Assembly (NCBI GenBank): GCA_015068345.1
Contig: SVKS01000009.1
Coordinates: forward strand, 1-37,064
Origin: Oscillospiraceae bacterium
GTDB lineage: Bacteria > Bacillota > Clostridia > Oscillospirales > QAMX01
Length of the DNA stretch: 37,064 nt
Reading direction: 5' to 3'
Shown: positions 5,827-36,305 of the stretch, piece by piece
Numbering within the stretch: the stretch's first letter is position 1
How the letters are laid out: every line of letters begins with the position of its first letter
Translations under genes and position numbers: made by a program
Notes under the pieces: generated by a model
What the model was told of the DNA's origin: nothing
What the model saw: only the letters and a program-made list of their open reading frames with translations
Databases searched by the model: none

Positions 5827-7317
5827 TTAACTTCTTTCCCGGACCTGGTTGCATTTTACAAGGGACACGGTCACAGGGAATTCCTCTTCCAGTTCGGCCA
5901 GGCTTTCCACGTAGTCGGCAGCACGCATATACTTTTCGGTATCGTTCTGCCAGCTGTAAACGCCCTTGCCAACAAAGTAGAGAATATGTACTCCATCTTC
6001 GTCGGCCAGGATGGTGGTATCACCGGTCTTGCGGCCCGATTCATTGGCCCAGGCGGCATAAACGACATCATCCTTGGCGGAGACGTTGTTCACAGCACCT
6101 TCTACAGCAGCCAAAGCCTCGTCCTCGCCCTTTTCAGCAGCCAGAGTCTTGAACGCATCGGCGGACTTGGTGCCAGCTTCATACTCAGCCAGGATCGCTT
6201 CGGCGGCACTCATGCAAGCTTCGTCATTTTCATAGTTCACAGCATCCAAATAAACATCAATGACGTTCTTGGTCATGCTGTCATCCCGTTCGGCGGCATC
6301 CACCACGTAAACGGCGGTATAGCGGTCATCATTGAAGGTGATAACCGTTTTGTCCCCATCTTCACGGGTATCGCTGAAAAGCCAGTCGGAAAGCTTGTTA
6401 TCACTGACGAACTTATAATTCTCGTGCAGAACGGCAGCATACTTCTCTTCGGCGATTTCTGCATCGTAGTTATCAAAAATGTAGGTCTTGAGGTTGGCCA
6501 TAAATTCCTCTTCGGAATTGCAGGCAATCAGAGCCTCTGCATCGGCCTTCGCCTTGGCGCGGGCTTCCTCAATCTCCTTTTCGGTGGCGTCCTCATCCTC
6601 CACGGTTGTAGGAATTGTGGAGAAGAAGATGCAGTCGGTGTAGAGGAAGTACTGGCGGAAGTTCTGATAATAGGTATTGATTTCTTCCTCGCTGTATTCG
6701 AAGGAATTGAGCAGATCATCATTCACTTTGGTGGAGATGTAGTAAACCTCCAGGGCTCGACGGATATCGTCCTCCTGAACACCCTCACCGTAACGGGACT
6801 GGATATAATCGGCTTCGCTCATGCCGACATTCTTGGCTTCTGCATTGAGCTTATTGATTTCCCGGTCGATCTTAAGAAAATCCTTCTCTTCCAGACCCAC
6901 ACCCTCGTCATAGGCCTTTTCGGCAAAGATCAGGATGTTTTTGGCTTCCTTCACGGTCATTTCCATAAAGTAGTCGTACCAGGTCATGGTTTCGTTGAAC
7001 ATTTGCTTCTTCAGGGGCTTATCCATATCAAAACCGCGTTCTTCGTAAAGATGCGGATTGGCTCCAACCTTGTCATACATGTAATCATACATGTAGTAGG
7101 AAAGCATGGCGTTGTCGATCTGCAGATTGTCCGATTCAATCCCCGCGGTGGCACGGAGAGTCGCGCCTCCCTTTTGAACAAAGGAAATGACAACGGCGCC
7201 GATCAGAATGATGCAGACAATACCGACTATAACTCCGATGGATATTTTGGTTTTTTTGTCCATCGGTGCCTTTTTCTCTTTCTTATTTTGATTTTGAGCC
7301 TTCACGTTAGATGCCAA
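5827..7317 (-). CDS. Membrane-anchored SurA/PrsA-like extracytoplasmic protein (uncertain function)
   Basis: TTG start with gaaagga RBS; Lys-rich N-terminus plus TM helix ISIGVIVGIVCIILIGAVVISFV, then a long acidic helical domain (SEEEINTYYQNFRQYF) resembling SurA-N/foldase proteins. Confidence 0.55.
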   Translation of the reverse strand: MASNVKAQNQNKKEKKAPMDKKTKISIGVIVGIVCIILIGAVVISFVQKGGATLRATAGIESDNLQIDNAMLSYYMYDYMYDKVGANPHLYEERGFDMDKPLKKQMFNETMTWYDYFMEMTVKEAKNILIFAEKAYDEGVGLEEKDFLKIDREINKLNAEAKNVGMSEADYIQSRYGEGVQEDDIRRALEVYYISTKVNDDLLNSFEYSEEEINTYYQNFRQYFLYTDCIFFSTIPTTVEDEDATEKEIEEARAKAKADAEALIACNSEEEFMANLKTYIFDNYDAEIAEEKYAAVLHENYKFVSDNKLSDWLFSDTREDGDKTVITFNDDRYTAVYVVDAAERDDSMTKNVIDVYLDAVNYENDEACMSAAEAILAEYEAGTKSADAFKTLAAEKGEDEALAAVEGAVNNVSAKDDVVYAAWANESGRKTGDTTILADEDGVHILYFVGKGVYSWQNDTEKYMRAADYVESLAELEEEFPVTVSLVKCNQVRERS

Positions 7318-7472
7318 ATCGAATCAATCCTTTCACAAGCAAGAATACGGGGCAGGATCTCCCCATCCAACACATGCCGATTATTATATCACAAATTTAT
7401 GGACTTGTCACTATCTATTTTAAAAATTCCCGGGAACTTTTGGTTTTCCTGCCAAGAGAGTCACATTCAAAA

Positions 7473-7509
7473 GCATCCCCGTGTCCGTGTAGGTTGGACA
7501 CAGGGATGC
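7473..7509 (-). terminator. Intrinsic terminator of the 7.5-10.7 kb operon
   Basis: Minus strand gcatccctgtgtcc-aacctacac-ggacacggggatgc followed by tttt. Confidence 0.65.
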
Positions 7510-7538
7510 CTTCACGAATCCCATTTGCTTTCTGGCAA

Positions 7539-8384
7539 TCAGGCAATGATTTCCCGCAGGGAAGCCACCGCCGCATCAAAGGCCGCTCTGGCAGAGGGGT
7601 AGGCAAAGCCGCCAACAGCACTTCTCTCCCCTTCCCGTTCCAGGTCGGAAAGACCCTTAAACACGGTCAGGTGAGGTTCCAGAGTCAGTACCTTTCCCCC
7701 CTGGGCACCGTATGCTTCCAGAATGGTGGGCAGGTTCCCGATGCCCTTGCCGGCAGGGACCACCGAGCCATCGGCGAAGCAATCCTTGATGTGCATGTAT
7801 TTCACGTATTTACCCAACATTTCCCAGGCTTCCAGGGTGTCCTGGCCCGACTGAATGAAGTTAGCCGGATCAAAAATGGCACCAATGGAGGGCAAATTTT
7901 CGTAGATCACCTTGCAGCGGGTAGCAATATCACCATAAATGCCCTTTTCATTTTCGTGACAGACCAGAAGGTCCAGGCCACGGGCTTCTTCTGCAAAGTG
8001 GCTCATGCGCTCCAGAACCTCATCCCGGTAGATTTCAGGATCCTCGTCCTTGGGCATGAAGAAGGAGAAGAGACGGAACGCCTTAGCGCCAAGCACCTCT
8101 GCCAATTCCAGGGTGTGCTTATACAAATCCAGATGGGGACCGAACGGATCGGTGATGTTGATTTTCCCGATGGGAGAACCGATGGACCAAACCGAAAGGC
8201 CCTTATCTTCCAGTTGTGCCCGAATCTCCTTGGCTTCTGTCAGGGTCAGGGAGGTGACGTTGCGGCCGTCAATCCCACGGATTTCCAGCCCGGAAACGCC
8301 GTTTTCAGCCATAGCGGAAATCTGTTCGGGAATAGAAGCACCTGCTTCGTCCGCAAAAGCGGCCAGTACGAAGGGATATTTCAT
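7539..8384 (-). CDS. Sugar phosphate isomerase/epimerase (AP-endonuclease-2-like TIM barrel)
   Basis: GVSGLEIRGIDG, FRLFSFFM, GAIFDPANFIQSG, YMHIKDCFADGSVVPAGKG motifs. Confidence 0.82.
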   Translation of the reverse strand: MKYPFVLAAFADEAGASIPEQISAMAENGVSGLEIRGIDGRNVTSLTLTEAKEIRAQLEDKGLSVWSIGSPIGKINITDPFGPHLDLYKHTLELAEVLGAKAFRLFSFFMPKDEDPEIYRDEVLERMSHFAEEARGLDLLVCHENEKGIYGDIATRCKVIYENLPSIGAIFDPANFIQSGQDTLEAWEMLGKYVKYMHIKDCFADGSVVPAGKGIGNLPTILEAYGAQGGKVLTLEPHLTVFKGLSDLEREGERSAVGGFAYPSARAAFDAAVASLREIIA

Positions 8385-8387
8385 ATT

Positions 8388-9212
8388 TTACACCCCGGAG
8401 TAGGCGGAGAAACCGCCGTCGATGGGAAGGACAACACCGGTAATAAAGCCGGCGGCCTTGTCGTCCAGCAGGAAGTGGAGGGCTCCCAGCAATTCTTCGG
8501 GATCGCCGAAACGGCCCATCGGAGTAGCCCGGAGGATCTTTTCGGTACGGGCAGTGGGAGTTCCATCTTCATTAAAGAGCAGGGCACGGTTCTGATTGGT
8601 AACAAAGAAGCCGGGGGCCATGGCGTTGACACGGATGCCCTGGGGAGCAAAGTGAACAGCCAGCCATTGGGTGAAGTTGGAAACCGCCGACTTGGCAGCG
8701 CTGTAGGCAGGAATCTTGGTCAGGGGACGGAAGGCATTCATGCTGGAAACGTTCAGAATGCTGCAGCCTTCCCGACCGATCATATCCTTGGCAAAGACCT
8801 GAGTGGGAAGCAGAGTACCCATGATGTTCAGGTCGAACACAAAGTTGAAGCCAGACTTGTCCAGGTTGAAGAAGGTCTTGATATCTTCCCGGGTCTCGTC
8901 CCCTTCTTCGAAGAATTCATGGGCGGTGGTGGCACGGGGGTTGTTGCCGCCGGCACCGTTGATGAGAATCGTGCAGGCACCCATGGTTTCCAGGATATCA
9001 GCATGGATGGCTTCCAGACTTTCCTTTTCCAGAACATTGGCCTTGTAGGCCTTGGCAGTACCGCCGGCAGCGTTGATTTCGTCAGCGACGGCCTGGGCAG
9101 CTTCCAGATTCAGGTCCAGAAGAGCGACTGCACAGTCTTTTTCCGCCAGAGCTTTTGCAAAGGAAGAGCACAGAACTCCTCCCGCACCGGTAATAACTAC
9201 TACTTTCTTCAT
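8388..9212 (-). CDS. SDR oxidoreductase, UxuB-like (D-mannonate oxidoreductase type)
   Basis: VVVITGAGGVLCSSFAKALAEK, YSAAKSAVSNFTQWLAVHFA, RATPMGRFGDPEELLGALHFLLDDKAAGFITGVVLPIDGGFSAYSGV C-terminus. Confidence 0.8.
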   Translation of the reverse strand: MKKVVVITGAGGVLCSSFAKALAEKDCAVALLDLNLEAAQAVADEINAAGGTAKAYKANVLEKESLEAIHADILETMGACTILINGAGGNNPRATTAHEFFEEGDETREDIKTFFNLDKSGFNFVFDLNIMGTLLPTQVFAKDMIGREGCSILNVSSMNAFRPLTKIPAYSAAKSAVSNFTQWLAVHFAPQGIRVNAMAPGFFVTNQNRALLFNEDGTPTARTEKILRATPMGRFGDPEELLGALHFLLDDKAAGFITGVVLPIDGGFSAYSGV

Positions 9213-9272
9213 AATGGTTATTTCCTTTCCCGATATGGTTTTTATCTCATATTTTTCGACCCTTCGGATCGT

Positions 9273-10727
9273 TTACAACGTAATGAATGCACCGTTGCCG
9301 ATGAGGAAACGATTGCAGGTTTCTTCCTCGCTCTCGGGTACCAGTTCTTCCTTGGAAACCGGCACGCCGTCCACGGTAACGCCCGACACAAGCTCGTTTG
9401 CGATCAGGCGGCACATGGGGTGGCCTTTTGTGCCGAGGGCTTCCCCATTGACGGTGATTTCCTCAAACCGCACGTCCCGGATATCGCTATCCGCTTGGTA
9501 ACCAATCATCCGGCAGGGCACCATGGTGCGTCCGGTGTAGGCGATACGGCGGAAGATAATCCCTTCCACTCTTCCCATCTTGTCCCCCTTGATCCAGCAC
9601 ATGGGCCGGATAAAGATCTCGCAAAGCCGGGGCTCACATTGAGGATCCAGGGGTTCCCCTACCCGAATGTCTTCAAACAGCACGTCATGCACCAACGCAT
9701 CCCCGCAGGCCTGCACGTCACAGGCCATAAACAGGAAGTGGAGCACGTCACAATTCCGGAAGGTGATTCTATGCATTTCGTCGGCACAGGTTTCTGCACC
9801 GATTTCCAGGGCACGCCCCCAATCGTTCCACAGAACGCACCTTTCCACCAGAATATCTTCCACGTTGCTGTTGTTGGTCTTCATGCCGCCAACCTCGTGT
9901 CCCCCCTTGAGGACGATACAATCGTCAAAGGTACGAACGAAGCAATTGGTGATCCGCACGTCGTAGGTGTTATAAAGGTCGATCCCGTCTGCGTTGTAGC
10001 GCCATTGACCAATCACCTTGACCCCATCGATCCTATGGTTCCCGCCGCCGCCAATCTTCAAAGAGAAGCAGGGTGCATCGTGCAAAATGACGCCTTCCAC
10101 CGTTACGTCCCGGCAGTCCACCAGCAGGATGCTGTTGATGGCGCTCTGTCTGGGTACCAGGCTGGTATCGATCACACCCCGACCCATGATGCGGATCCCG
10201 TCGGCATGCTCGGCAATAACCCCACCCATCAGGCGGGCCCCGCCGGCCAGGTACAGGGTCTGCCCCGACTGCACGCGAAGCAATCCCACGTTATGGAGTC
10301 CCGGTCCGTAATAAAGCACGTTGGGATCATCCTGATCAGGCACCTGTGTCTCGGGCGGATCGAAGAAAATATGCAGGGGCTTGTGAACCCCGTTGACTTC
10401 CAGTACGTAGCTTCCGCATTTTTCCAGGGTAAACTGCAGCCGCCGCCCGTTTCGCAGGACCTTCACCCCGGCGCTTGCCGGAACCACCGACGCGCAAAAC
10501 ACGTCGAAATTCACATCCACCGTCAGGGATGCCGCTTCGTCCCCCTCAAAATGGACGTAGGAGGCCAGTTCGGTCTCGTCTATTCCCCGCTGTTTTCCCC
10601 GAAATATCTGGTTGGTTGCCATGGCGGAAAACCGAACCGGATAGACGTGCAGGCTTTCCCCCGCAAGACTGACCGAGTAATCGGTACTGACCGGCTCAAA
10701 GGGAGCCACCTGGTAGGCTTTCAGCAT
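9273..10727 (-). CDS. GH28-family (polygalacturonase-like) right-handed beta-helix glycoside hydrolase, no signal peptide
   Basis: GRGVIDTS, YNADGIDLYNTYDVRITNCFVRTFDDCIVLKGG; start MLKAYQV placed 7 nt after aggagg. Confidence 0.82.
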   Translation of the reverse strand: MLKAYQVAPFEPVSTDYSVSLAGESLHVYPVRFSAMATNQIFRGKQRGIDETELASYVHFEGDEAASLTVDVNFDVFCASVVPASAGVKVLRNGRRLQFTLEKCGSYVLEVNGVHKPLHIFFDPPETQVPDQDDPNVLYYGPGLHNVGLLRVQSGQTLYLAGGARLMGGVIAEHADGIRIMGRGVIDTSLVPRQSAINSILLVDCRDVTVEGVILHDAPCFSLKIGGGGNHRIDGVKVIGQWRYNADGIDLYNTYDVRITNCFVRTFDDCIVLKGGHEVGGMKTNNSNVEDILVERCVLWNDWGRALEIGAETCADEMHRITFRNCDVLHFLFMACDVQACGDALVHDVLFEDIRVGEPLDPQCEPRLCEIFIRPMCWIKGDKMGRVEGIIFRRIAYTGRTMVPCRMIGYQADSDIRDVRFEEITVNGEALGTKGHPMCRLIANELVSGVTVDGVPVSKEELVPESEEETCNRFLIGNGAFITL

Positions 10728-10798
10728 TTCCATTCCTCCTGTTTCCACCCAAGAAGCTATCGCTTCGCCTCGGTATGGACTCTGGATGATTTTAGATT

Positions 10799-10827
10799 AT
10801 CATACCACTTTCATAGCTTCTTGTCAA
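10799..10827 (-). promoter_or_regulatory. SigA-type promoter of the GH28 operon
   Basis: Minus strand TTGACA (10827-10822), 17-nt spacer, TATGAT (10804-10799). Confidence 0.7.
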
Positions 10828-10877
10828 ACAGAAGCGCCGTTTTTTCTAAAAGAATCCAAAGAATCTTCGGGAAACGA

Positions 10878-10906
10878 TTGAAAAAACAGGATTTATATAG
10901 TATAAT
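10878..10906 (+). promoter_or_regulatory. SigA-type promoter of tsaE-tsaB
   Basis: TTGAAA, 17 nt, TATAAT. Confidence 0.7.
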
Positions 10907-10970
10907 ACAGTGGTTCGGAAGTTTCTTCCGATTTTTACCACTACGACTTCATCAAGAGGGATCATCACCC

Positions 10971-11417
10971 ATGAATATGGAACATCACTACGCCGCATCC
11001 CCGGCTGAAACCGTCGCCCTTGGGGAATCCTTTGGCCGCCGTCTGACCGGCGGCGAGGTTTTGCTTTTGGACGGAGACCTGGGGGCAGGAAAGACTGCCT
11101 TCGTTTCCGGGGTGGCAAAGGCCCTGGGGGTCGTCTCCCGGGTCACCAGCCCCACCTTCACCATTGTCAACCGCTATACCACCGGCCGGGTTCCCCTGAC
11201 CCACTTTGACCTTTACCGTATTGCCGACCCGGAGGAGCTTTTTGAACTCGGCTGGGAGGAATACCTGGCGGAGGGAGGCGTGGTGGCAGTGGAATGGTTC
11301 CGGAACGCCGGAGAAGAGCTCCCCGAGAACCACATTCTGATCACCCTGCGCTACGAAGACGTGGGACGAAGCATCACCATCCAATCCGTCCCCCCGGAAG
11401 GAGAAACCGCATCATGA
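10971..11417 (+). CDS. tsaE: tRNA t6A modification ATPase TsaE
   Basis: [59 protein letters not shown]; lies inside a much longer spurious track ORF. Confidence 0.95.
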
Positions 11418-30702: not shown

Positions 30703-30972
30703 TCAAAATTCGTACATAATTGCGCTGGTGGCACCCAAAGCTACTACCAGGATCACCAGCATAATAACAAGAATCAACGCCAGAGCATAGACGCAGAAGA
30801 AGGAGCGTGCGTAGTTTTTCAGGTTGATGTTACTTCCGCCACCCAGGGCAAACACCAGGATGCAGATGAAACCCACCACCGGAATGGAGAAAAGCAGGTT
30901 GTAGCCAAAGTAAGCCCAGGGAGAAAGGGGTTTGTACTCAGCAGGGATCGTGTTTTTGACTTCAGGATTCAT
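30703..30972 (-). CDS. Small membrane protein (two predicted TM helices)
   Basis: MNPEVKNTIPAEYKPLSPWAYFGYNLLFSIPVVGFICILVFALGG...VYALALILVIMLVILVVALG. Confidence 0.7.
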   Translation of the reverse strand: MNPEVKNTIPAEYKPLSPWAYFGYNLLFSIPVVGFICILVFALGGGSNINLKNYARSFFCVYALALILVIMLVILVVALGATSAIMYEF

Positions 30973-30994
30973 AATAACTCTCTCTTTCATTTAT

Positions 30995-33313
30995 TTAGGC
31001 AAGACGCTTGCCCTTGTACCAAATTTCGTAATCTTTCTGGTCGCCGTGGATCCGGTAGCTTTCCAGGACACCGTCCCTCCAGCAAATATCCAGTTTCATG
31101 TTGCCCTTCACAGCGATTCCCTTCAGGGATCCGGTCTTCCAATCGGTGGGCAGGGCGGGCAAAAGGGTGATCTTCTTGCCAATGCTACGCACCAGCATCT
31201 CTGCTATGCCGGCGGTGCAGCCAAAGTTGCCATCGATCTGGAAGGGCGGATGGGCATCAAAGAGGTTGGCATAGGTACCGCCTCCGTTGTAAGCCAGCAT
31301 CGCCGCCGCAGGCAGATTGCTTCCCGCCGCAATCATGGGGTCCTTCAAGCGAAGCTGATTATCCAGCATGATCTTGGCGTGATCTCCGTCATTGAGCCTG
31401 GCCCAGAAGTTGATTTTCCAACCCAGGCTCCAGCCGGTGCCGTCGTCACCCCGTTCTTCCAGGGTGCGTTTGCAGGCAGCAAAGTACTCCGGAGTATCCT
31501 CTTCATTGAAGAGGCCCGCCGGATAGAGCCCGTAAAGGTGGCTGGTGTGGCGATGGTGAGGTTCCACCTCCTCCATTTCCTCAGCCCATTCCAAAAGCTG
31601 ACCCCGGGATCCGATCTTCGGTTGCCAGAGTTTAGAAATCGCCGCTTCAATTTCAGGGGTATAGCGATTCAGGCCCAAAAGCTTTTCGGTTTCCAGGAGG
31701 TTCAAAAAGAGTTCCCGGATGATGGTCATGGTCATGGTGGTGGTTTTGGACACGGCGGTAGCCTTCCCGTTAAACCAGAAGTTGTTTTCCGGGGAGGTGG
31801 AGGGAACCAGAGCCAGGTTTCCTTCCCCATCGTCGCTCAATACATCCAGGTAGAAACGAGCGGCATCCGCCATAACCGGGTATGCTTTATCCCGCAGGAA
31901 ATCCAGGTCCAGGGTGTATTCGTAGTATTCGTAAAGATGACGGCACAGCCAACCGGAGGCCATGGGCCAGAAGGACCACACCGCACTCCCCTGCACCGGT
32001 ACGGTATGACGCCACAGGTCGCTGTTGTGATGCACCGTAAATCCACCGGCACCGTAATACTGACGTGCGGTCTTACTGCCATTTTCTCGGAGTTCATCCA
32101 CCATACGGTTGAGGGGTTCGGTCAGTTCCGGCATGGCAGTAGGCAGGGCCGGCCAGTAGTTCATTTCGGTATTGATGTTTGTAGTATAGTTGGAATTCCA
32201 GGGGGGATTGGGTTCATCGTTCCAAATTCCCTGCAGATTGGTGGGTTGGGTTCCCGCCCGTGAAGAGGCGATCAGCAGGTAACGGCCAAAGTTAAAGAGA
32301 AGCGTGTAAAGTCCAATATCCTTTTTATCCTGCATAAAGTTCAGCAGGCGGTCGTAGGTGGATTGGTTTTCCTTTCCATCGCTTCCCAGATCCAGTTCCA
32401 CCCGGTCGTAGAAGCTGCGGTGGTCGGCCACGTGCTCCTCCTTCAGGACATCGTATCCCTTTTGCAATGCCGAAAGCAGACGACGGTTGACAATGGGTTT
32501 GGGATCCTTCCCCTCCAGGAAGGGATGCTTGTCGGGTCCTGCAAAGCTTGTGGCGGTGGAGAAATAGAGTTCTACCCTCTTTGCCCCACGAATGCAAAGC
32601 TTATCCCCCATGGCTTTAGGATAACCATCGGTTTTGACCTCCAGCGCCGCATAAATTTGCATCCCCCGATTCTCATCCCCATCCAAATAACGGTAGAAGG
32701 GGTTGGGATCCCGGCGATCGGTATAACTGGGGGCTTCGGCGGTCATAGCAAGCCGGGTTTCGCGTGCCTCTGTTTTGTAACGCAGGGGTGACGTCATGGA
32801 AATAGACAGGTCGAAATGCTCTTCCGCATCGATTCGGTAAACCACCACTCCCGCAGGGTGAGAAGCAAAGGCTGTACGGCTAACCTTCTTCCCATTTTGC
32901 GTGTAAGCTACTTCGGCCAGAGCGGTCTGGAAATCCAGGGTACGAACGTAATTTTCTGTGCCTTCCTCACAGGAAAATTCCAGAAACAGATCACCCAGGG
33001 GCAAATATGCCTGGCTATCCTCCCCCTGAAAATCCTTTTCCAAGATGGTCTGTGCCTCGTCATACCGACCTTCCAGTACCAGCTTTCGGGCTTCCTTCAG
33101 AAATTCGGCACGGGGATAATCGTATTTTTTGCTTCCACCGTAGCCGTTTTCCATACCGGGGCCACCGCCCCAGATTTCATCATGATTCAAGGCAAGGCAT
33201 TCCTTTTGAACTCCGCCAAATACCATGACGCCGATATCTCCCGAGCCAATGGGCAGGGCTTCCTGCCAGCATGCTGCAGGTTTCCAGTATTTCGAAAAAT
33301 GTCCGTCTTTCAT
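30995..33313 (-). CDS. GH95-family glycoside hydrolase (alpha-L-fucosidase/alpha-galactosidase type), no signal peptide
   Basis: KPAACWQEALPIGSGDIGVMVFGG, TNINTEMNYWPA, PSTSPENNFW, FQIDGNFGCTAGIAEMLVRS; start MKDGHF after ggagga. Confidence 0.92.
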   Translation of the reverse strand: MKDGHFSKYWKPAACWQEALPIGSGDIGVMVFGGVQKECLALNHDEIWGGGPGMENGYGGSKKYDYPRAEFLKEARKLVLEGRYDEAQTILEKDFQGEDSQAYLPLGDLFLEFSCEEGTENYVRTLDFQTALAEVAYTQNGKKVSRTAFASHPAGVVVYRIDAEEHFDLSISMTSPLRYKTEARETRLAMTAEAPSYTDRRDPNPFYRYLDGDENRGMQIYAALEVKTDGYPKAMGDKLCIRGAKRVELYFSTATSFAGPDKHPFLEGKDPKPIVNRRLLSALQKGYDVLKEEHVADHRSFYDRVELDLGSDGKENQSTYDRLLNFMQDKKDIGLYTLLFNFGRYLLIASSRAGTQPTNLQGIWNDEPNPPWNSNYTTNINTEMNYWPALPTAMPELTEPLNRMVDELRENGSKTARQYYGAGGFTVHHNSDLWRHTVPVQGSAVWSFWPMASGWLCRHLYEYYEYTLDLDFLRDKAYPVMADAARFYLDVLSDDGEGNLALVPSTSPENNFWFNGKATAVSKTTTMTMTIIRELFLNLLETEKLLGLNRYTPEIEAAISKLWQPKIGSRGQLLEWAEEMEEVEPHHRHTSHLYGLYPAGLFNEEDTPEYFAACKRTLEERGDDGTGWSLGWKINFWARLNDGDHAKIMLDNQLRLKDPMIAAGSNLPAAAMLAYNGGGTYANLFDAHPPFQIDGNFGCTAGIAEMLVRSIGKKITLLPALPTDWKTGSLKGIAVKGNMKLDICWRDGVLESYRIHGDQKDYEIWYKGKRLA

Positions 33314-33335
33314 GGATATTTCCTCCACTTCATTC

Positions 33336-34616
33336 TCAGATCAGTTTTTCCTGAATTTCCTTCACATCCACTTCGTGGGGATCGATTCCCTTTGCCACGG
33401 CAATGGCGGCGGCAGCTCCCGCCCCCTCACCCATAGCAAGGCAAATCGGCATAACCCGGTAGTTGGAATGAGCCATGTGGGTGCCGGAAATATTCCGCCC
33501 CGCAAGCAAAAGGCCCTTCACCCCTTCGGGGATCAGGCATCGGTAGGGAATGGTGTAGCCCTTGGCTTGGGGGAAATATTTCTGCTGGCCGGTCTTGTCC
33601 AGGCCGGCACCCTCGATATTATGTACGTCGAAATTGAAATGGGCACCCCGTACCACCCAGTCATCGAACACCCGGGCTTCCAGGATATCCTCCTCGGTGA
33701 TGGTGTAAAGTCCCTTGAAATGGCGGGTTTCTCGAATGCCAACCATGGGAGCCGCGCTAATGACGTAGCAATTCTCGTACCCCGGTACAAACTCCCGCAG
33801 GAATGCCTCGATGGCATAAATCTGCTTGCGGCACTCAATCTCCGCCCGGGTCAGGCTTTCCGCATCGGTACCATCGATACCGGTACAGTTGGTCATGTTG
33901 CAGGTCACCACCCCGGGCAGGGTGGACTTATATAGCAGAACATGTCCCGCAGGGGCCGGCAGGTGTTCCCTTGCCAGAGCCTGGAGCTCACCCCGGGGCG
34001 TCTCATAGGTGGATTCAAAGCTTGGCAGAAAAACCGCTCGATCATAGTCCACCCCAGCCACCTTGAACATGATGGTGGCGGGCTGCATCTTTCCGTCGCT
34101 TTCCCGGCCCATAAAATAGGGAACCCCCGCCTTGGCGGCCACATCCCCGTCACCTGAGGCATCGATCACGATTTTTGCCAGGAAGGCTTCCCGCCCCGAC
34201 TTACTTTCGGTGATAACGCCGGCGATTCGGTTTCCTTCCATAATGGGAGCCGACACAAAACTGTAGAATCGGATGGAAGCACCCGCCTCCTCCAGCATTT
34301 CCAGATAGAGAAGCTTCAGTTTTTCGGGATCAATTTCAATCACCGGCCGGTTCTTGAAATCCCCCTCATTCTTTTCTGCACTGCGGATCAGGATTTCCCG
34401 GTAAAGATTACTGCCAGAGGTGCCAGTCCAGTGGCTCATAAGCCCGGCGGTGGAAACGCCACCGGCCATACCGCTCTGTTCCAAAACCAACACCTTTGCG
34501 CCGCCTCGGGCGGCCATAATGGCAGCCCCCATACCCGCCGGGCCGGAGCCGATCACCAATACATCATATTCCCCCGCCACCGGCAGGGTCTTTGCTTCTT
34601 CCCGATAGATTTTCAT
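33336..34616 (-). CDS. FAD-dependent oxidoreductase (FAD_oxidored/PF12831-like)
   Basis: YDVLVIGSGPAGMGAAIMAARGGAKVLVLEQ, IVIDASGDGDVAAKAGVPY; start MKIYREEAK. Confidence 0.85.
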   Translation of the reverse strand: MKIYREEAKTLPVAGEYDVLVIGSGPAGMGAAIMAARGGAKVLVLEQSGMAGGVSTAGLMSHWTGTSGSNLYREILIRSAEKNEGDFKNRPVIEIDPEKLKLLYLEMLEEAGASIRFYSFVSAPIMEGNRIAGVITESKSGREAFLAKIVIDASGDGDVAAKAGVPYFMGRESDGKMQPATIMFKVAGVDYDRAVFLPSFESTYETPRGELQALAREHLPAPAGHVLLYKSTLPGVVTCNMTNCTGIDGTDAESLTRAEIECRKQIYAIEAFLREFVPGYENCYVISAAPMVGIRETRHFKGLYTITEEDILEARVFDDWVVRGAHFNFDVHNIEGAGLDKTGQQKYFPQAKGYTIPYRCLIPEGVKGLLLAGRNISGTHMAHSNYRVMPICLAMGEGAGAAAAIAVAKGIDPHEVDVKEIQEKLI

Positions 34617-34626
34617 ATAGAACCTC

Positions 34627-35307
34627 TTATTTCCCCAGAGCACCGGCAAAGGCCCGGAAGATCTTCGCCGCATCCTCGTCTTCGGTGTAATAGATTTCGG
34701 GGTGCCATTGCACACCCAGGAAGAACTTGCGTCCCGGCATCCAAATGGCCTCGGTGCGTCCATCCGCCAAGTCGGCACAAACCTTCACACTTTTGCCCAA
34801 CCCCTTCACCATCTGGTGGTGCCAGGAATTGGTGCGAATCACGTCCTTGCCCATGATGTCATGCAGCAGGGTCCCCTGTCTGATGTATACGTCATGCCAC
34901 ACGTCGGGGCCGTCCCCGGCGCTGTGACCCTCCACGTGCTGAAACAGACTCCCGCCGAGACCCACGTTCAAAAGCTGGATCCCTCGGCAAATGCCAAGCA
35001 CCGGTTTATCCCGCAGCATCACCGAGGTTAGAAGGGACAATTCAAAAGCATCCCGTTCCTCATTGGCCTGGCCGCACAGGGGGTGCCGATCCTCCATGTA
35101 ATATTTGGGATCCACGTCCCCACCGCCGGTGAAAAGGAAACCATCAAATTGGTCGGCGTACTCCTCTGCCTTGGCCCAATCCAGCTTGCCGGGCAGAGCC
35201 ACCGGCATAAGCCCTGCATCCCACAGGGCGTTGAAGTAACGTTGATGTACGTGGATCATGTTACCATCCCGGAGTTCCCCGGTCATGGCTACAGTAGGAC
35301 GACTCAT
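34627..35307 (-). CDS. Class I glutamine amidotransferase / gamma-glutamyl hydrolase-like (peptidase C26, PuuD-like)
   Basis: FLFTGGGDVDPKYY, PVLGICRGIQLLNVGLGGSLFQ, VQWHPEI. Confidence 0.9.
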   Translation of the reverse strand: MSRPTVAMTGELRDGNMIHVHQRYFNALWDAGLMPVALPGKLDWAKAEEYADQFDGFLFTGGGDVDPKYYMEDRHPLCGQANEERDAFELSLLTSVMLRDKPVLGICRGIQLLNVGLGGSLFQHVEGHSAGDGPDVWHDVYIRQGTLLHDIMGKDVIRTNSWHHQMVKGLGKSVKVCADLADGRTEAIWMPGRKFFLGVQWHPEIYYTEDEDAAKIFRAFAGALGK

Positions 35308-36305
35308 TTCGCCGCCTCCCCTACCGCCTGGAAGTAAGCATCAATATTGGCCCAGGAAGCCTTAGGCGGAATGTCACAGCCGGAGGAAGGAATGTAGTTT
35401 TTGAAACCCTTCAGCGCCTCCATCTGATCCAAAACCGCCTTGCGGATGCTTTCAGGGGTACCATCCTTGAATTCAAACACCGGGCTGATGTTGCCCATGA
35501 CCACGATGTCCTCCGGGGTCTTGGCCAGGATGCTTCCCAGGTCCACCGCATCCCCAAAGTGATAGGCCACGGCACCCTGGTCGTAAAGGAAGGGCAACAT
35601 GGCTTCCACACTGGCACCGCAGTTGTGGTAAACCACCCCAAATTCCTCGGTCTGCACCGCTTCAATAATCTCCTTTACATAGGGAGCGGAAAACTCCTCC
35701 GCCAGGGCGGGAGACATGATACCTGTGAGGGGTTCGGCCATGACCACACCCACAGCCCCTGCTTCCTTGTATGCCAGGATGTATTTTTTCAGGAAATCGG
35801 TGGCCTTCCGCATGACGGTATGCACCATATCTTCCTCATCATAACAATTCAACATGATTTCCGAAACGCCCATCAAACGGCCCGCCAGGGAGAAGGGACC
35901 GATGACGCCGGCAAACACCGGGCGGTCGGTAATCAATTCGCAGGCCTTACGGATGGTTTCCACGTAAAGGCCGGTGCGGGCTGCACCCACTTCGGGTACC
36001 ACAAGATTTTCGGCATCTTCGGGGGTTTCCACCAGAATACCGGTGATGGCGGGCACCTCATCCTCAAAGGCAACCATGGTACCGCCAAAGGCCTCAGCTT
36101 CCACCGAAAGGTCCATCATGCTGACCGAAGCCAGCGACGGGCAACGGGCCGCCACGGCAGCCATACCCTGGGCCTGCTTGTCGGAAGATGCAATCAGTTC
36201 CCGCACCGAACAGCCCAGAAGGGCAGTGGAGGGGAATGAAAGAATCGGCATAGCCTTTTTGTGGGAGTCTGCGGCATGTTCCTGTAGAAATTTCTTTACC
36301 TGCAT
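35304..36305 (-). CDS. Uroporphyrinogen decarboxylase/MtaA-family protein with corrinoid-methyltransferase-type zinc motif
   Basis: AGVIGPFSLAGRLMG, VVMAEPLTGIMSPALAEEF, VVYHNCG ... PSSGCDIPP (H-x-C-x81-C counted from the protein). Confidence 0.85.
   Translation of the reverse strand: MQVKKFLQEHAADSHKKAMPILSFPSTALLGCSVRELIASSDKQAQGMAAVAARCPSLASVSMMDLSVEAEAFGGTMVAFEDEVPAITGILVETPEDAENLVVPEVGAARTGLYVETIRKACELITDRPVFAGVIGPFSLAGRLMGVSEIMLNCYDEEDMVHTVMRKATDFLKKYILAYKEAGAVGVVMAEPLTGIMSPALAEEFSAPYVKEIIEAVQTEEFGVVYHNCGASVEAMLPFLYDQGAVAYHFGDAVDLGSILAKTPEDIVVMGNISPVFEFKDGTPESIRKAVLDQMEALKGFKNYIPSSGCDIPPKASWANIDAYFQAVGEAAK

Follow-up and report, generated by a model that had tools for sequence, protein, structure and literature searches.

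An MtaA-like methyltransferase gene heading a glycan operon in an Oscillospiraceae bacterium, with candidate corrinoid partners encoded elsewhere in the genome

To our knowledge, no role is settled for MtaA-like enzymes outside methanogens, and the roles proposed for them in the literature concern sulfur and selenium. Among published systems, those that come closest are the mlp gene clusters (PMC10418091), CdmBCA (PMC13222342) and the core methionine synthases (PMC7857596). MtaA-like proteins (Mlps) are defined by an identity above 25% to a characterised SCMT, and the type 1 mlp clusters by the presence of two or three Mlps (PMC10418091). His-Cys-Cys (HCC) zinc sites in the UroD superfamily mark S/Se-methyltransferases, and the Mlp2 of type 1 clusters moves a methyl group between methylcobalamin and selenide (PMC10418091). 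The CdmBCA and OdmB/VdmB systems hand the methyl group to folate via a dedicated MTII (PMC13222342). The locus described here carries an mlp gene in a different setting.

The stretch of DNA analysed (the window) is 37,064 nucleotides long and belongs to the 2.8 Mb draft genome (G000) of a gut-type anaerobe, which is 92% complete, so gene absences reported for this genome are provisional. The first-pass annotation had described a row of five genes on the minus strand, in the order Mlp, C26 amidase, FAD enzyme, GH95 and small membrane protein, with spacings of -4, 10, 22 and 22 nt. All of this agreed with the open reading frames of the window, and the spacings hold with the starts given in Table 1 for the FAD enzyme, GH95 and the small membrane protein. 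A second promoter-like site (30663-30636, 10 of 12 positions in the consensus scan) follows the small membrane protein gene, so the downstream ManD cluster may form its own unit. The search for intrinsic terminators gave no convincing candidate. Elsewhere in the window, the only domain recognised in a 1368-aa open reading frame (7311-11417, plus strand) is a TsaE domain close to the C terminus, and its first 1200 residues matched no family.

Table 1. Features of the five-gene row and the adjoining sugar-acid cluster (positions in the window)
Feature	Position	Strand	Remarks
Promoter-like TTTACA-18-TATAAT upstream of the Mlp gene	36398-36369	-	Predicted; consensus scan, 11/12 positions
MtaA-like protein (Mlp)	36305-35304	-	333 aa; UroD superfamily; predicted zinc ligands H227, C229, C310
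Peptidase_C26 amidase	35307-34627	-	226 aa; PuuD/gamma-glutamyl-hydrolase-like; ATGA overlap with Mlp stop
FAD-dependent oxidoreductase PF12831	34616-33336	-	426 aa
GH95 glycoside hydrolase (alpha-L-fucosidase/alpha-L-galactosidase family)	33313-30995	-	772 aa
Small membrane protein, no assigned family	30972-30703	-	89 aa; longer start at 30990 possible
Sugar-acid cluster	30580-26611	-	Adjoins the operon; Pfam and NCBIfam
ManD-like dehydratase	30580-29390	-	Pfam/NCBIfam
SDR	29317-28556	-	Pfam/NCBIfam
Second enolase-superfamily dehydratase	28544-27372	-	Pfam/NCBIfam
Metallo-beta-lactamase-fold hydrolase	27312-26611	-	Pfam/NCBIfam

The first protein had been read as MtaA-like rather than as a plain UroD, and the comparisons bear this out. 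It matched URO-D in Pfam (PF01208, 2e-47), and among the NCBIfam models it scored 99 bits against TIGR01463 (mtaA_cmuA) but only 44 bits against TIGR01464 (hemE), below the hemE equivalog cut-off of 303 bits. All SCMT models also scored it below their curated cut-offs, including NF040654 for MtaA (85 bits, cut-off 400) and NF041608 for MtbA (93 bits, cut-off 600). Solved HemE and MtaA chains scored about equally when the single sequence was used; with the profile of its orthologues, MtaA (4ay7) ranked first among solved structures, and CdmB (9rui) also matched, at 2e-8, much more weakly than MtaA. The AlphaFold model (pLDDT 91) had MtaA (4ay8/4ay7) as its closest solved fold. The identity between Mlp and 4ay7 was 28.6% over 248 aligned residues (84-342 of 4ay7), and about 22% over the whole fold.

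The H-N-C...C motif pointed out earlier corresponds to H227, C229 and C310, the two cysteines lying 81 residues apart, and these residues align with the His-x-Cys...Cys zinc ligands of MtaA. A lack of conservation at these positions had been named as a refuting result; they are conserved in 50 of 51 Mlp orthologues. The exception (L027:8001-9011) has HNF in place of HNC at an otherwise conserved site. In the model, one strand ends at H227 and C229, and C310 comes shortly after a second one; judged from strand ends and the MtaA alignment only, this placement fits a zinc site at the mouth of the barrel. The genome holds 17 further PF01208 matches. When 16 other UroD-superfamily proteins of G000 were aligned, only L092 on contig C38 seemed to keep all three ligands, and most had His-x-Cys plus a His near the third position. 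The assignment of Mlp to the MtaA-like class, and not to HemE, is thus well supported by profile, sequence, ligand alignment and fold. With these predicted HCC ligands, its substrate is likely to be a thiol or selenol.

Of 394 genomes sampled across the order, 57 carry an Mlp orthologue; within the family, at least 11 of 21 genomes do, counting one copy truncated at a contig end (G005). Neighbours were counted at 51 order-level Mlp loci, the window included. An MtaC-like corrinoid protein or a RACo activase was encoded within 6.5 kb of Mlp at 35 of them. On the same strand and within 3 kb, the counts were 26 for the corrinoid protein, 24 for RACo, 13 for DUF2284 and 10 and 9 for the UroD paralogues c4 and c10, respectively; by our estimate, with about one corrinoid and about one RACo gene in some 2,000, chance would account for about 1% of loci. 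Profile comparison gave good support for placing c4 in the UroD superfamily and weaker support for c10, and PDB searches with c4 gave no match. The clusters of relatives usually combine one HCC Mlp with UroD paralogues that lack HCC; two Mlps occurred together only at L132 and L169 among these loci. No folate methyltransferase was seen among the scanned neighbours in the relatives' clusters. At L138, three tandem corrinoid-protein genes lie upstream of Mlp. These data describe a distinct Mlp orthologous group of one bacterial order that accompanies a corrinoid protein, its activase and other UroD-superfamily genes. The window alone among the 51 loci has C26, FAD and GH95 genes beside Mlp; a distant FAD homologue lies about 5 kb from Mlp on the opposite strand at L029.

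The window had been reported to contain no corrinoid protein, which is correct for the window but not for the genome. The genome search that had been suggested located one MtaC-like corrinoid protein, which carries DxHxxG, on contig C25 and one RACo, with an open frame, on contig C3, whereas Mlp is on contig C169. The corrinoid gene follows that of an AraC regulator and precedes that of a GH35 protein, and its product is 55-83% identical to homologues in most genomes of the family. The genome also encodes one DUF2284 protein (contig C97) and three c10 homologues. With these partners present, Mlp most likely works in trans, and the puzzle of an MtaA-like enzyme without a corrinoid protein is answered at the level of the genome. 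Since the genes for Mlp and the corrinoid protein lie apart in G000, we infer their pairing from the relatives.

Three of the other four proteins of the row were assigned to known families. The amidase matched Peptidase_C26 (PF07722, 4e-54) and carries ICRG and WHPE, the catalytic Cys and His-x-Glu motifs. Its closest solved relatives are Lin1909 (3fij) and PuuD (6vtv), and it scored 85 bits against the PuuD equivalog NF008471, below the cut-off of 266. The FAD enzyme covers the full PF12831 profile (1-416 of 416, 1e-113) and has a GSGPAG dinucleotide-binding motif; its homologues in other genera lie near GH123, GH43-like, gluconolactonase-like and other genes, which fits carbohydrate use, though not specifically. 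The GH95 protein has the catalytic domain PF22124 (1e-163) with the catalytic motifs NIN-EM, STSPE and QIDGN, and matched the structures 2rdy (1e-177), 8zbv, an alpha-L-fucosidase (3e-151), and 4ufc, a GH95 enzyme (2e-144). The small membrane protein had no match in Pfam or NCBIfam.

These four genes were then compared within the genus. The gene order in G014 is helicase, C26, FAD, GH95, small membrane protein, ManD and lactamase-fold protein, and that in G017 is helicase, C26 and FAD, followed by the contig end. The FAD orthologues after C26 in these two genomes are 80-83% identical, the small membrane protein at the equivalent position in G014 is 44% identical, and the ManD (88%) and lactamase-fold (67%) proteins follow it there as well. 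C26, FAD, GH95 and the membrane protein are a unit kept within the genus, behind the same helicase gene and without Mlp. No strong Mlp match was found in four same-genus genomes, G014 and G017 among them, and the window's Mlp sits exactly at the junction where, in these two, C26 directly follows the helicase. A misassembly is unlikely, as synteny is conserved to either side of this junction. The frame of Mlp is intact, and its GC3 of 0.66 compares with 0.61-0.69 in its neighbours. The simpler reading is a gain of Mlp in the window's lineage, and the alternative is that it may have been lost in the sister species; the Mlp tree, in which the window's protein is on a long branch, points to no particular origin. 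The gene row is thus a composite, in which a displaced member of a widespread corrinoid methyl-transfer system heads a glycan operon of the genus.

Further observations concern the flanks of the unit. In G014 and G017, C26 is immediately preceded by a TATAAT stretch. Homology between the region upstream of Mlp in the window and that upstream of C26 in these two genomes was considered and set aside, as the alignment was poor. Of the sugar-acid cluster of the window, G014 has the ManD and lactamase-fold genes only.

For the methyl acceptor, we searched G000 for known methionine synthesis genes. The 92% complete draft gave no match to PF01717 (MetE and core MetE) or PF02219 (MTHFR), and no MetH was detected, PF02607 giving a single match without a second. 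In G017, which lacks Mlp, the genes next in line after the corrinoid one encode UroD c4 and then a stand-alone homocysteine S-methyltransferase (PF02574; L081:6526-9270), the only such enzyme found beside a corrinoid gene among the fetched loci. Together with the HCC ligands, these findings make homocysteine the preferred, if hypothetical, acceptor of Mlp. Homocysteine as acceptor would explain how methionine could be made in bacteria without any known methionine synthase. The organism may also simply import methionine. We rejected the broader idea that Mlp stands in for MetH in every genome that has it, because several genomes of the family encode a MetH-size corrinoid protein as well as Mlp. 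Searches of Mlp and corrinoid loci for SAM and cobalamin riboswitches gave no match, and the one T-box detected was not assigned to an Mlp operon, so that control by methionine gains no support.

In G014, genes for GH29 and a DUF4838 protein adjoin corrinoid or UroD genes, as do those for GH78 in G013 and for GH2, an esterase and an alpha-galactosidase in G010 and G012. Such adjacency to glycoside hydrolases, seen in several genomes among the neighbours that were scanned with Pfam, makes O-methyl sugars a candidate methyl source. At the order level, the clusters are made mainly of corrinoid genes themselves, and our literature search found no precedent for the corrinoid-dependent removal of methyl groups from sugars. 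We regard the donor, like the link to glycan use, as hypothetical. A bolder and quite improbable version is that UroD proteins in the glycan operons of this lineage strip O-methyl groups from methylated plant-type sugars onto a shared corrinoid protein, from which Mlp passes them to homocysteine, so that dietary methyl-sugars would feed a folate-free synthesis of methionine without MetE, MetH or MTHFR. On four contigs of G000 (C38, C16, C119 and C120; loci L092, L093, L094 and L103), UroD genes lie directly beside those for GH116, GH29, GH28, an arabinofuranosidase and GH2.

We propose, with a probability of about 0.5, that Mlp is a zinc- and corrinoid-dependent methyltransferase that works in trans with the partners on C25 and C3, has homocysteine as its preferred acceptor and has become joined to a glycan operon. 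Mlp would belong to the soluble-CoM-methyltransferase (MtaA-like) lineage, and its predicted zinc site at H227, C229 and C310 would most likely bind a thiol or selenol. It would exchange methyl groups with the MtaC-like protein of C25, whose Co(I) state would be restored by the RACo of C3, and at least one other UroD-superfamily protein of the genome probably loads the methyl group onto the corrinoid protein. With homocysteine as acceptor, the outcome would be folate-free methionine synthesis. The Mlp gene would have joined the head of the pre-existing C26-FAD-GH95-membrane protein operon, or been lost in the sister species, and the substrate of that operon may be a fucose/galactose-type glycan. 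Its position at the head of the operon suggests that Mlp is probably co-expressed with glycan use and probably does not share the substrate of its neighbours.

The same enzyme could run in the opposite direction, as a demethylase of a methylated thiol or selenol such as dimethyl selenide, methylthioadenosine or other S-methyl compounds, with the methyl group leaving by another route. This direction has been proposed for the Mlps of type 1 clusters (PMC10418091). The HCC ligands suit S/Se chemistry, the selenide activity of type 1 Mlp2 is a precedent (PMC10418091), and the lack of a folate methyltransferase among the scanned neighbours agrees with it. However, a single HCC Mlp with non-HCC UroD paralogues is the usual arrangement here, as opposed to two or three Mlps in type 1, and we consider this direction unlikely. 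A similarly small chance is given to Mlp being a recent and functionally unlinked arrival that uses the operon promoter and adds nothing to glycan use. Its long branch, its place at the helicase-C26 junction and the lack of strong matches in the four same-genus genomes would all be expected of such an arrival. Nevertheless, the intact frame, kept ligands and matching base composition indicate that the gene is not a decaying passenger, and its partner genes, corrinoid and RACo, are still in the genome.

It had also been suggested that the row may process a glycoside that is methylated and/or gamma-glutamylated, which would have the five proteins act one after another. The tight spacing with a 4-nt stop-start overlap of Mlp and C26 speaks for such a pathway, as do the glycoside hydrolase genes beside corrinoid or UroD genes in G000 (GH35), G014 (GH29), G013 (GH78) and G010/G012 (GH2 and alpha-galactosidase). 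Against this, the other four genes stand together without Mlp in G014, as does the C26-FAD pair in G017, and the genome-context comparison found no other Mlp of the 51, and no relative examined, that keeps Mlp with C26, FAD and GH95, an outcome that had been named beforehand as refuting this reading. In addition, HCC ligands favour thiols over ethers (PMC10418091). We thus regard a joint five-protein pathway as very improbable.

Taken as a corrinoid-dependent methyltransferase acting in trans, Mlp can be compared with the known systems. It shares with MtaA, MtbA and MtsA of Methanosarcina (4ay7/4ay8) the UroD fold and the His-x-Cys...Cys ligands, with the best profile and fold match, and in its relatives the genes for an MtaC-like corrinoid protein and an activase are close by. 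However, the identity over the whole fold is about 22%, no SCMT cut-off is reached, and coenzyme M is not expected in this bacterial genome. The type 1 mlp clusters (Kountz and Balskus 2023, PMC10418091) likewise have bacterial HCC Mlps, a corrinoid protein and bacterial RACo, with no folate methylase seen. They differ in that the clusters of this orthologue usually have one HCC Mlp together with non-HCC UroD paralogues, DUF2284 and AraC, and in that the parts lie on separate contigs in G000, with Mlp in a glycan operon. CdmBCA and OdmB/VdmB of Acetobacterium dehalogenans also combine a UroD-superfamily methyltransferase with a corrinoid protein and an activating enzyme, but CdmB is a zinc-free substrate methyltransferase (PMC13222342). 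The core folate-independent methionine synthases MesA-D belong to PF01717, which has no match in G000, whereas Mlp belongs to PF01208; MesA-C nevertheless resemble the proposed role of Mlp, as they too are proposed to be zinc enzymes, with a related barrel fold, on which homocysteine receives the methyl group of a corrinoid protein (PMC7857596).
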